DNA of 64,000 nucleotides from the NCBI RefSeq assembly GCF_003344865.1, contig NZ_CP031165.1, positions 5,523,910 to 5,587,909 of the forward strand. The letters are read 5' to 3'. Positions 58,204 through 61,923 of the stretch are shown piece after piece. Both the position numbers and the translations under genes were made by a program. The notes beneath the pieces were generated by a model, which worked only from the letters and a program-made list of their open reading frames with translations, was not told the origin of the DNA and did no database searches. This DNA is from Euzebya pacifica (GTDB taxonomy: Bacteria > Actinomycetota > Nitriliruptoria > Euzebyales > Euzebyaceae). Position 1 is the stretch's first letter. Every line of letters starts with the position of its first letter.

Positions 58204-58292
58204 CGACCGTGATCGGTGACAGAACCCTTTCGTGGAAACCCGGGCGCGATCGCTGGCGTCGGACCGGGCACGTCACCACCACGGAGGACCCA

Positions 58293-59387
58293 ATGGACCA
58301 CACCCCCACCCAGCTGCCCCACCACCGCCGGGCCACGACTCGACGCCGACGGTGGACCGTCCGACGGTCGGCCGCCATCGCCGTGCTCCTGCTCCTCCTC
58401 GCCGGCGCCTGCTCCTCCGACGAATCGGGCGACGACAGCGCGGTGGAGTCGGTGGCCGAAGGCCGCGAGGACTCCGTCGAGTCCGCTGACGCCGACTTCG
58501 GGTTCGGCGACGAGGCGGAGGTTGCGGAGGAGGGGGCCGCTGCCCCCGCCGAACCGGGCGCCACCACCGACGTCGCCGACAGCTCCACCGACGACGCGCC
58601 GACCGGCCCCGTGAGCGTCCCCGACACCGCCACGACCGGTGAACGGATCATCAAGGAGGGCACGGTGACCCTCGAGGTCGAACCCGGCTTCTTCGACACC
58701 GCCTTCGGCCAGGTCATCGCCCGGGCCCAGGCGCTCGGTGGCCACGTCTCCGGGTCCTCCTCCTCCACCGACACCGAGGGGCTGGTCCAGGGACAGGTGA
58801 CCGTCCGCGTCCCCGTCCGCAGCTTCGAGGACCTGCTGACCGCCGTGGGCGAGGCAGGCGACATCGTGGACCGCAACGTGACCAGCCAGGACGTCAGCGA
58901 GGAGTTCACCGACCTGGAGTCCCGCCGGCGCAACCTTCGTGCCCAGGAGGGCTTCTACCTCGGCCTGCTGGCCGACGCGACGAACGTCTCGGATGCCATC
59001 GCCATCCAGCAGCAGCTGGAGGACATCCAGCGACGCATCGAGGAGATCACCGGCCGGCTGAACCTGCTGGCCGACCGCTCGTCGTTCTCCACCCTGACGG
59101 TACGCATCCACGAGCGGGGCGCCGACGCGGTCGAGGAGGTCGTCGAGGACGGACCCCAGCTGGGCACCTACGTCGAGACGGCGCGCAACACCCTGATCGA
59201 CGTGATCGGCGGGCTCCTCGTGATCGCCACGGTCCTGCTGCCCTTCCTCCTCCTCGGGCTGGGTGTCTGGGCGATCGTCCGCACCGTGCGTCGTCGGCGG
59301 CCGCCGGTCACCGCACAGCCCTACGTCCACCCGGTGGCGCCGCCGGCCGCACCGGAGGAGGAGCGGGTGCCCGAACCGCAGGGCTGA
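58293..59387 (+). CDS. DUF4349 lipoprotein
   Basis: A 364-residue exported lipoprotein: basic N-terminus, hydrophobic stretch, lipobox LAGAC with Cys40, then an acidic disordered segment to about residue 110. The DUF4349 domain runs from GERIIKEGTVTLEVEPGFFD through a coiled-coil-like part (AIQQQLEDIQRRIEEITGRLNLL) to STLTVRIHE. A membrane helix (LLVIATVLLPFLLLGLGVWA, about residues 303-322) near the C-terminus anchors the far end with a basic and Pro-rich tail. Role unknown; members have been linked to envelope and cell-surface functions. Strong GGAGG site before the ATG. Confidence 0.88.
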   Translation: MDHTPTQLPHHRRATTRRRRWTVRRSAAIAVLLLLLAGACSSDESGDDSAVESVAEGREDSVESADADFGFGDEAEVAEEGAAAPAEPGATTDVADSSTDDAPTGPVSVPDTATTGERIIKEGTVTLEVEPGFFDTAFGQVIARAQALGGHVSGSSSSTDTEGLVQGQVTVRVPVRSFEDLLTAVGEAGDIVDRNVTSQDVSEEFTDLESRRRNLRAQEGFYLGLLADATNVSDAIAIQQQLEDIQRRIEEITGRLNLLADRSSFSTLTVRIHERGADAVEEVVEDGPQLGTYVETARNTLIDVIGGLLVIATVLLPFLLLGLGVWAIVRTVRRRRPPVTAQPYVHPVAPPAAPEEERVPEPQG

Positions 59388-59459
59388 CGCGGAGCCCCTC
59401 GACGGTGGCGGCCTACAGTGGCCGCCACCGTCGTCGTGACCCAGAAGGACTGACTCGCC

Positions 59460-59717
59460 GTGATGACCCCCGAGACGTGGATGGACCTCGTCAACTGGAT
59501 GTTGCTCGCCCTCGGGGCGGCGATGGCCGGCGGCACCGGGGTGGCCCTGTTTCGCTTCCGGCGGACCGGGCTGTTCCCGGGACAGCCCATCGACGACGAC
59601 GGCAACCCCATCGGCACACCGTCGATCACCTCGGCCTGGGTCAAGGTCGCGATCGGCGGGATCCTCGTCCTGTGGGGACTGGCCGGCCTGGCGTCCGGCG
59701 AGATCTTCGGATTCTGA
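59460..59717 (+). CDS. Small membrane protein of unknown function
   Basis: An 85-residue protein with two membrane helices: LVNWMLLALGAAMAGGTGVALF and VKVAIGGILVLWGLAGLASG. Between them lies a polar loop with FRRTGLFPGQPIDDDGNPIG. GTG at 59460 is used; ATG at 59463 is equally likely and differs by one residue. AAGGA lies about 11 bases upstream, and a TACAGT box lies at 59415-59420. No recognisable family. Confidence 0.75.
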   Translation: MMTPETWMDLVNWMLLALGAAMAGGTGVALFRFRRTGLFPGQPIDDDGNPIGTPSITSAWVKVAIGGILVLWGLAGLASGEIFGF

Positions 59718-59887
59718 CGACCTCGAGGCAAGGACCCGCGGCGATTCGGTAGCGGGTGTCTCAACGTCCGTTGGTACACCTGTTCCGCCCTGGACTGTCA
59801 CCTCGGACGTCTTGCGGCCCCGCCCCGCCTCACGCACACTGCATGGCAAGAGTTGACTAGTTCTCCACACGATCAGTCCAAAATTTC

Positions 59888-59913
59888 GTAACGGAGGCAG
59901 GTGTCGGTCGTTG
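59888..59913 (+). promoter_or_regulatory. Possible ECF-type promoter before the small peptide gene
   Basis: GTAAC, 16 bases, then CGTTG, matching the AAC...CGT pattern of many ECF sigma promoters. It lies 50 bases before the peptide start, in a locally AT-rich stretch (59845-59895). Self-activation by the sigma factor at 60150 is inference. Confidence 0.4.
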
Positions 59914-59962
59914 TACCGGCAAGAACCTGACGTCAACCTTCCTCGTACCCAGGAGTCACGCC

Positions 59963-60142
59963 ATGCGTCGCAAGTTCGTAGCGCTGTCCATCGTTGCCCT
60001 CTCCGCCCTTGCCGCCGTCTCGCCTGCAGGCGCCGAGAGCCCGGTGGACCTGGACTCCGACGACAACGGCCCCTACATCTGCTTGAAGTCCCGCCCGTTG
60101 TGGGGCGAGGACCGCGTCTGCATCCGCACCTGGGACGCTTGA
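59963..60142 (+). CDS. Small secreted cysteine-containing peptide
   Basis: A 59-residue frame with AGGAG eight bases before the ATG. MRRKFVALSIVALSALAAVS is a clean signal peptide, with cleavage after SPAGA likely. The mature part, about 34 residues (ESPVDLDSDDNGPYICLKS then RPLWGEDRVCIRTWDA), has two cysteines 13 apart that could form a disulfide. It ends seven bases before the ECF sigma factor start and so is probably the first gene of a two-gene unit. No family is recognised. The regular Shine-Dalgarno spacing, signal peptide and close coupling argue that it is a real gene. Confidence 0.72.
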   Translation: MRRKFVALSIVALSALAAVSPAGAESPVDLDSDDNGPYICLKSRPLWGEDRVCIRTWDA

Positions 60143-60149
60143 TACCTCG

Positions 60150-61220
60150 GTGACCGCCCTTCTCCCGCCGCAGCGGGGCTCCACCTTCGCCGAGGCGCTC
60201 CTGGGTGATCAGGACGCGCTCGACGAGCTGCTCCGACGGCACCGCGCGTCCGTCGAGGCGGTGTGCTTCCGGCGCCTGCGCTCGCGCACCGACGCCGAGG
60301 ACGCGGTGCAGGAGACCATGGTGCGGGGGATGCGGTCACTGCAGCACGTCGATGACCCGGCACGGCTGAAGAGCTACCTGTGCCGCATCGCCGAACGCGT
60401 CTGCCTCGACATGCTTCGGGCCGGCGCCAAGGCGATGCCCTACGTGGTGGAGGACGTGCTCGACAGCTCCGACGGCACCGACGAGCCCGAGACGGTGGCG
60501 CTCGAGCGCGAGCGGGCCCGGCTGGTCCACGAGACCCTTCGTGCCCTCAGCGAACGGCAGGCCACGGCCCTGTGGATGCGCGACGCCCTCGGCGAACCGG
60601 TCCCGGTCGTCGCCGAACGGCTCGGTGTCACCGAAGGATCCGCGCGGGTCCTGCTGACGCGCGCCAGGGCCAAGATGCGCGATGGCTGGGCCAAGGTGGC
60701 CGCGTTGCTCCCCGGCGCCGGCATCAAGTTCCCGGTGTTCGCCGCGAAGGCCGCCCACGTCGGCCCGCTGGCCATCCCGGCCGCCGTTCCGGCGCTGGTG
60801 CTGGTCGCGGTCGTGGCCGCCATCACCCCGGCGGCCTTCGACGCCCTGCAGGACGGGGACGACCAGTCGATCCGCATGTCCTCCGGCAGCGTCGCCACCA
60901 AGGGCGACGCCACCCGGCCCTCGGCGCCCATGGAGTTCGGGTCGACCCCGACCCCGACCACGGACGTCCTGGTGACCAGCACGCCACCCAGCACGTCCTC
61001 CGTTGGGGGATCCACGGCGCCGTCGCCGTCGTCGGGGCAGGCGCGACCGGCGGTCGATGTCGGCGTCGCGTCGGTCGGACGCGAACCCGACACCGGAGAG
61101 GACGACCCGGTCACCGTCGGCGACGCCGATCTGCTGGAGGTCGGGGCCGGACTCGGTGAACAGGTCGAGGCGTTCGTCCAGGAGACGGGCCTCCCGGATC
61201 TGCTCGGCGGCGGCCGCTGA
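60150..61220 (+). CDS. ECF sigma factor with C-terminal transmembrane and extracytoplasmic tail
   Basis: A 356-residue protein. Region 2 is ALDELLRRHRASVEAVCFRR to RIAERVCLDML (about 22-89), including DAEDAVQETMVRGM; region 4 is ALSERQATALWMRDALGE to VTEGSARVLLTRARAKM (about 132-176). A membrane helix at about 206-230 (LAIPAAVPALVLVAVVAAIT) is followed by 126 residues rich in Ser, Thr, Pro and acidic residues outside the membrane, ending EAFVQETGLPDLLGGGR. No separate anti-sigma factor gene is present, so the tail may be the regulator. GTG start at 60150, seven bases after the peptide gene. Confidence 0.9.
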   Translation: MTALLPPQRGSTFAEALLGDQDALDELLRRHRASVEAVCFRRLRSRTDAEDAVQETMVRGMRSLQHVDDPARLKSYLCRIAERVCLDMLRAGAKAMPYVVEDVLDSSDGTDEPETVALERERARLVHETLRALSERQATALWMRDALGEPVPVVAERLGVTEGSARVLLTRARAKMRDGWAKVAALLPGAGIKFPVFAAKAAHVGPLAIPAAVPALVLVAVVAAITPAAFDALQDGDDQSIRMSSGSVATKGDATRPSAPMEFGSTPTPTTDVLVTSTPPSTSSVGGSTAPSPSSGQARPAVDVGVASVGREPDTGEDDPVTVGDADLLEVGAGLGEQVEAFVQETGLPDLLGGGR

Positions 61221-61256
61221 CCCCCCTCCGCACCTCGGGGAAGTTTTTCGTGCCGG

Positions 61257-61268: not shown

Positions 61269-61338
61269 GTGACGTCTCGTCCGTCTACCCACCAGCAGCG
61301 CACCGTGCGTTGTGGATGGACTCGGACGGACCGGCACA

Positions 61339-61923
61339 GTGACCACGAGCACCCACACGTCCCACGACGACCTTGCCGTGGCGGCCCGGGCTGGCGACGA
61401 CCACGCGTTCAGGCTGCTGGTGGAGCGCTTCCGTCCGATGGTGCGGGCCATGGCCCGGGAGCGGTTCATCCCCGGTGGCGACCACGACGACCTGGTGCAG
61501 GAGGGCATGGTCGGCCTGTGGCACGCCATCCGTGACTTCAACCCCGCCGCCGGCCCGTTCGGCCCCTTCGCCCGCCTGTGCGTCGACCGGCAGATGTGGG
61601 CGGCGGTGACCAAGGCGAACCGCTATCGCCATCGGGTCCTGCACGATGCGTCGGTCTACGAGGACTGGATGGACATCGCGGTCTCCGAGGAGGACCCGGC
61701 GGTCATCAACGACTCGCTGGAGTCCGTGGAGATGCTGCAGCGCCACATCCGCGCCACCCTCAGCGACCTGGAGACCCAGGTCCTGCAGATGTACGCAGCC
61801 GGCGCGTCCTACGACGACATCGCCGACCGGCTCGCGATGCACCGCAAGCGCATCGACAACGCGCTGCAGCGTGCCCGCCGCAAGATCGCGGAGTACCGCG
61901 AACGCGACCTCGTCGCCGTCTGA
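61339..61923 (+). CDS. Sigma-70 family factor (SigH/ECF-like)
   Basis: A 194-residue sigma factor. Region 2 is DHAFRLLVERFRPMVRAMARERF to DHDDLVQEGMVGLWHAIRDFNPAAG, ending near QMWAAVTKANRYRHR; region 4 is LSDLETQVLQMYAAGASYDDIADRLAMHRKRIDNALQRARRKI. The QEG.VGL.HAIR.F segment resembles Bacillus SigH rather than typical ECF factors. No anti-sigma gene is adjacent. Start uncertain: GTG at 61339 opens at a plausible N-terminus, and ATG at 61312 is the alternative. A palindrome is upstream. Confidence 0.88.
   Translation: MTTSTHTSHDDLAVAARAGDDHAFRLLVERFRPMVRAMARERFIPGGDHDDLVQEGMVGLWHAIRDFNPAAGPFGPFARLCVDRQMWAAVTKANRYRHRVLHDASVYEDWMDIAVSEEDPAVINDSLESVEMLQRHIRATLSDLETQVLQMYAAGASYDDIADRLAMHRKRIDNALQRARRKIAEYRERDLVAV

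Follow-up and report, generated by a model that had tools for sequence, protein, structure and literature searches.

The genome of Euzebya pacifica, a marine-type actinobacterium, contains a pair of adjacent genes that we tentatively read as a two-gene signalling unit, in which an ECF sigma factor is tethered to the membrane, its anchor and extracytoplasmic tail would replace an anti-sigma factor, and a small secreted peptide would serve as a sensory cap. We give this reading a probability of about 45%. The pair lies in a 64,000-nucleotide stretch of DNA (hereafter the window) on the 5.80-Mb contig of the 6.37-Mb, two-contig genome, and its features are collected in Table 1.

Table 1. Features of the peptide-sigma unit, in window coordinates
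Feature	Position	Strand	Properties and basis
Conserved upstream block	59828..59886	.	57/59 positions match the sister species; mean intergenic identity about 80%
ECF-like motif GTAAC-N16-CGTTG of the first-pass annotation, doubtful	59888..59913	+	
Shine-Dalgarno sequence of the peptide gene, AGGAG	59951..59955	+	Sequence; found before the peptide gene of the sister species too
Secreted 59-aa peptide gene	59963..60142	+	Signal sequence ~1-24, mature part ~35 residues, Cys40 and Cys53
ECF sigma gene with C-terminal membrane anchor and tail, 356 aa, GTG start	60150..61220	+	Pfam, NCBIfam; orthologs in G002 and G050
Transmembrane helix IPAAVPALVLVAVVAAI, residues 209-225	60774..60824	+	Hydropathy, flanking charges
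Predicted extracytoplasmic tail, 131 residues	60825..61217	+	Cysteine-free; variable, Pro/Ser/Thr-rich proximal part
Conserved distal tail module, residues 303-345; candidate peptide docking site	61056..61184	+	Identity to the sister species
Terminator-like hairpin with T-run, closing the two-gene unit	61226..61240	+	

Results

The peptide gene is under purifying selection

The first-pass annotation of this DNA described a 59-residue peptide with a signal sequence and two cysteines that ends seven bases before an ECF gene, and the coordinates of the open reading frames confirm this. The peptide gene runs from an ATG to a TGA at 60140-60142, and exactly seven bases (TACCTCG) separate this stop from the GTG of the sigma gene. 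Residues 1-24 resemble a Sec signal peptide, with an A-G-A site, and beyond this Sec-type signal we saw no gene for export or processing of the peptide. Cys40 (codon 60080-60082) and Cys53 (codon 60119-60121) are the cysteines of the motif C-x6-W-x2-DR-x-C-I. The third-position GC of the gene is 0.88, and 0.97 in its mature part, similar to the adjoining genes, as expected of a coding frame. When comparing the window with the sister species (G002), we obtained a dN/dS of 0.28 for the peptide, with 14 of the 28 changes synonymous (about 7 expected without selection, P 0.005) and zero amino-acid changes in the last 20 codons, which include both cysteines. The annotation had staked its case on a frame that is conserved in relatives, and conserved it is, given the dN/dS, the excess of synonymous changes, the fitting third-position GC and the absence of any indel. 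The peptide is hence supported as a real, selected gene, and purifying selection, judged from this pairwise comparison, is acting on the C-terminus of the mature peptide. We rejected an extra RNA-level constraint on the last 20 codons (2 synonymous changes), which was not significant against windows of neighbouring genes. The peptide has no family match in Pfam, NCBIfam or PDB. Its AlphaFold2 model is weak (pLDDT 64), with strands at residues 36-42 and 51-55 and the two cysteines in separate strands, and a fold search with this model returned zero matches at E <= 0.001.

The sigma factor carries a membrane anchor and a conserved tail end

The sigma protein matches Sigma70_r2 at residues 27-92 (E 6.5e-15; Pfam 55.1 bits, cut-off 24), Sigma70_r4_2 at residues 125-176 (E 1.5e-11; Pfam 44.2 bits, cut-off 25.7) and TIGR02937 (82.9 bits, cut-off 42.9). 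With regions 2 and 4 above cut-off and without region 3, it has the domain content of an ECF member of the sigma-70 family. The 30 residues before the transmembrane helix contain 3 Lys/Arg and no acidic residue, the 30 after it 2 basic and 5 acidic residues, and the positive-inside rule predicts from these charges an N-in, C-out topology. The helix and the outside location of the tail as first annotated are thus borne out, the latter as a predicted topology, and the tail is 131 residues long by our count, not 126. Downstream of region 4, the protein contains no cysteine, and Pfam gave no anti-sigma match there and no carbohydrate-binding module in the tail; by sequence, this is a sigma factor without a fused zinc-finger anti-sigma domain. 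The tail is acidic and Pro/Thr-rich, and AlphaFold2 yielded no reliable structure for it (pLDDT 38). Identity between the window and the sister species is 96% for the sigma domains, 55% (42/77) for the proximal tail and 91% (39/43) for the distal tail module. Such a conserved module, set beyond a linker that drifts, is the appearance expected of a docking site. Given the predicted outside location of the tail and its conserved distal module, the earlier suggestion that the peptide acts on the tail is sensible.

Gene neighbourhood and upstream region

As annotated before, no anti-sigma gene is near: scanning five local proteins with Pfam and NCBIfam revealed no anti-sigma domain, and the neighbours of the pair are a DUF4349 protein, an 85-aa protein without a match and a SigH-like sigma factor, none an anti-sigma gene. 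The first two, both membrane proteins, lie upstream at 58209-59717 and are syntenic in the sister species. The SigH-like gene (61312-61923, plus strand), which matches sporulation sigma H models with E 3e-40 and below their curated cut-off, comes directly after the ECF gene, placing two sigma genes in tandem; it is syntenic in the sister species as well.

No terminator was found between the peptide and sigma genes. We considered three other roles for the short frame and rejected them. A leader or attenuator is at odds with the lack of both a terminator and a credible Rfam match between the two genes. A single frameshifted protein is at odds with the different frames, the conserved stop and a signal peptide that would misplace the sigma factor. 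An anti-sigma factor would need a cytosolic domain, which the peptide lacks.

The first-pass annotation further proposed autoactivation through GTAAC-N16-CGTTG, and this we could not support. The motif occurs once where 0.01 matches are expected, but it was picked post hoc, and the sister species does not conserve its -35 half, which reads GTCAC there. The most conserved stretch of the upstream intergenic region between the two species is the block at 59828-59886, which is likely, given this conservation, to be the promoter or operator of the pair. The core of the block, GAGTTGACTAGTTCTCCAC, occurs in one copy in each of these two genomes, and we dismissed the block as a regulon motif because of this single copy per genome. 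Upstream of the pair, positions 59764-59775 form a near-palindrome, CAACG-NN-CGTTG, which is a possible operator; in the sister species the palindrome is perfect over its 12 bases (CAACGGCCGTTG).

The pair recurs in another family of the class

We asked whether peptide and sigma factor are paired in related genomes, a check that the first annotation had named, and found the pair in two genera. In the sister species, the peptide (86% identical) and the sigma factor (84% identical) occupy the same order and place, with no indel in the peptide frame. A profile search with the peptide within the class Nitriliruptoria identified it in 3 of 66 genomes: that of the window, the sister species and a member of another family (G050). 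Sampling 396 genomes of the phylum revealed no further peptide; matches in other classes were signal-peptide similarity inside long frames and were discarded. No relatives of the pair were found on viral contigs or plasmids, and a scan of genome contigs returned ordinary ECFs only.

The sigma factor of G050 is 37% identical to that of the window over most of its length, tail included. Its gene comes first, and the next gene, for a secreted peptide of 68 aa, begins within it: GTG start and sigma stop overlap in the four bases GTGA. The neighbourhood is unlike that of the window, and with the order reversed as well, the linkage has either outlived rearrangement or been rebuilt. The peptides of the window and G050 share the pattern C-x6-W-x2/3-DR-x-C-[IV], and their mature parts aligned better than all but 40 of 20,000 shuffles, or all but 3 of 20,000 at a lower gap cost.

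Related sigma factors carry the cysteine pair on the tail itself

Besides the lineage of the window (lineage A), we identified five paralogous membrane-tailed ECF lineages in the same genomes: B (L072/L276), C (L073/L158), D (L085/L070), E (L359) and F (L355, in G050). The tail of each has exactly two cysteines, which are spaced as C-x(7-12)-C and lie within the final 30 residues. With each lineage represented by one protein, 10 cysteines fall in the 150 terminal residues and 0 in the 556 other tail residues (p 1.5e-7). This value is to be read with two limits: the pattern had already been seen in B, C and D when we framed the test, with E and F found later and in agreement, and the five lineages are only partly independent, as the tail ends of B and C look related. 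None of the B-F sigma genes has an adjoining gene for a secreted cysteine peptide. In all three genomes of lineage A, the tail has no cysteine and an adjoining secreted peptide has a C-x12/13-C pair; where B-F have two cysteines in the last 30 tail residues, the window has the pair in the neighbouring peptide. With the pair fused to the tail in B-F and separate in cysteine-free A, the peptide looks like the cysteine-pair module of the tail supplied in trans. The suggestion that it acts on the tail is strengthened by these paralogs, whose own tails carry a two-cysteine end. No sequence homology can be demonstrated between the peptide and the paralog tail ends; both are short and, the cysteines aside, unlike each other. 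The rule is local to the class and not general, since several membrane-tailed ECFs from elsewhere are without terminal cysteines and without a neighbouring peptide.

In a tree of the sigma domains with a weakly resolved backbone, most membrane-tailed ECFs fall in one part, and B and C sit together elsewhere. L143, placed near lineage A, was set aside as a soluble ECF on a long branch with an apparent fused H-x3-C-x2-C zinc finger. The two-cysteine-loop tail end of the sigma factors at L072 (1894-2979, minus strand), L073 (1961-3157, plus), L085 (1196-2305, minus), L359 (2061-3230, minus) and L355 (1369-2634, plus) is apparently an undescribed architecture. At L355 in G050, related ECF genes stand in tandem (398-1225 and 1369-2634), one with the cysteine-pair tail and one without a membrane helix.

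Discussion

By analogy with RseB/RseA and ToxR/ToxS, the most likely role of the peptide is that of a cap protecting the tail of the tethered sigma factor from cleavage. Peptide and sigma factor would be made together from one transcript. The exported peptide, probably closed by a disulfide, would fold via a Cys40-Cys53 bridge and dock on the distal tail module; with the peptide docked, the tail would resist extracytoplasmic proteolysis and the sigma factor would stay at the membrane. Loss of the cap, whether it is reduced, diluted, not properly exported or folded, or captured by a ligand or a component of the cell wall, would expose the tail, and site-1 and then site-2 cleavage would free the sigma domain. 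We infer the disulfide, the docking, the proteolytic release, the sign of the regulation and the signal. Site-2-protease homologs, which are near universal in bacteria, are present in all three genomes that bear the pair. A narrower version, which we regard as speculative, takes the detachable, separately encoded 35-residue disulfide peptide as a split form of the fused cysteine-loop tail, an outside sensor whose occupancy would report secretion or disulfide formation in the envelope.

Alternatively, the peptide could be an output of the sigma factor, such as a small protein of the envelope or an antimicrobial one; its gene would then stay close by for the sake of co-regulation, and the peptide would have no action on the tail. 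ECF genes often adjoin their targets, and without a family match the peptide could have a structural or effector role. We consider this unlikely: across genera and in either gene order, the peptide stays next to the same rare sigma lineage, it occurs only with lineage A, whose tail is free of cysteine, and it precedes the sigma gene in one unit with no terminator found between them. It is similarly unlikely that the peptide is an activating ligand, as in the signal proposed by the first-pass annotation, where an autocrine signal or density cue would accumulate outside, bind the tail and trigger release of the sigma factor. A small secreted peptide adjoining a receptor-like tail would fit a ligand-receptor pair, the conserved pairing and the selection on the peptide gene count for a ligand too, and lysozyme with RsiV is a precedent for an extracellular protein that triggers RIP (PMC6066255). 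However, the two-cysteine element of the paralogs is fused to the tail and cannot report density, and a Sec-type signal is the only export or processing feature seen. Conserved neighbours without joint function, with the G050 peptide a chance look-alike, are very unlikely, for although the entire neighbourhood is syntenic in Euzebya, so that adjacency there says little by itself, and the likeness to G050 involves about a dozen residues (shuffle p about 0.002), the G050 peptide has a four-base overlap with an A-type sigma gene, in surroundings unrelated to those of the window, shares the cysteine/Trp/Asp-Arg pattern and has no counterpart in the class outside the three genomes.

The cap reading has partial parallels in known systems. 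Release by proteolysis has been proposed for membrane-tailed ECFs (PMC8999054, PMC5826349). Like ECF48, ECF52 and ECF53 (SCO4117 of Streptomyces; PMC5826349, PMC8999054), the window sigma factor is actinobacterial, has a C-terminal transmembrane helix with a Pro-rich outside extension and has no separate anti-sigma factor; unlike them, it lacks a zinc-finger anti-sigma domain and a carbohydrate-binding module, and a separate gene encodes a secreted peptide. As these two domains are missing, the window sigma factor is, by domain content, of the membrane-tailed kind and not ECF52 as defined. In the RpoE-RseA-RseB system of E. coli, RseB, exported and encoded in the same operon, binds the periplasmic part of RseA and blocks its proteolysis (PMC8103513), the role that we propose for the peptide. 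The peptide has an export signal, is encoded in one unit with the sigma factor and has no family match; RseA is a separate anti-sigma factor and RseB a large folded protein, whereas here the sigma factor itself is tethered, the cap has about 35 residues and there is no homology. ToxR of Vibrio cholerae is a transcription regulator bound to the membrane; it has two cysteines in the periplasm, and their redox state, together with the small partner protein ToxS, sets the proteolysis of ToxR (PMC6242745). ToxR is a DNA-binding regulator and not a sigma factor, and its cysteines are on the tether, as in lineages B-F and unlike in this pair. IutY of Pseudomonas putida (ECF243) is a sigma factor fused to a membrane regulatory extension and is freed by Prc and RseP (PMC8999054); its fused part is the anti-sigma factor of an iron-signalling system, and it has no secreted peptide.

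Our literature search, mostly of open-access papers, retrieved no sigma factor paired with a dedicated secreted peptide, and to our knowledge none is known with a peptide partner of this kind. New here is the pattern of a cysteine pair that is present either in cis, in the tails of lineages B-F, or in trans, in the peptide of lineage A. Membrane-tailed ECFs are common in Actinomycetota, and for very few of them is it known what the tail senses. With a sister set in which the pair is either fused or on a free peptide, a single small peptide is enough to put the sensor question to the test, and the set offers a natural split switch for engineering.
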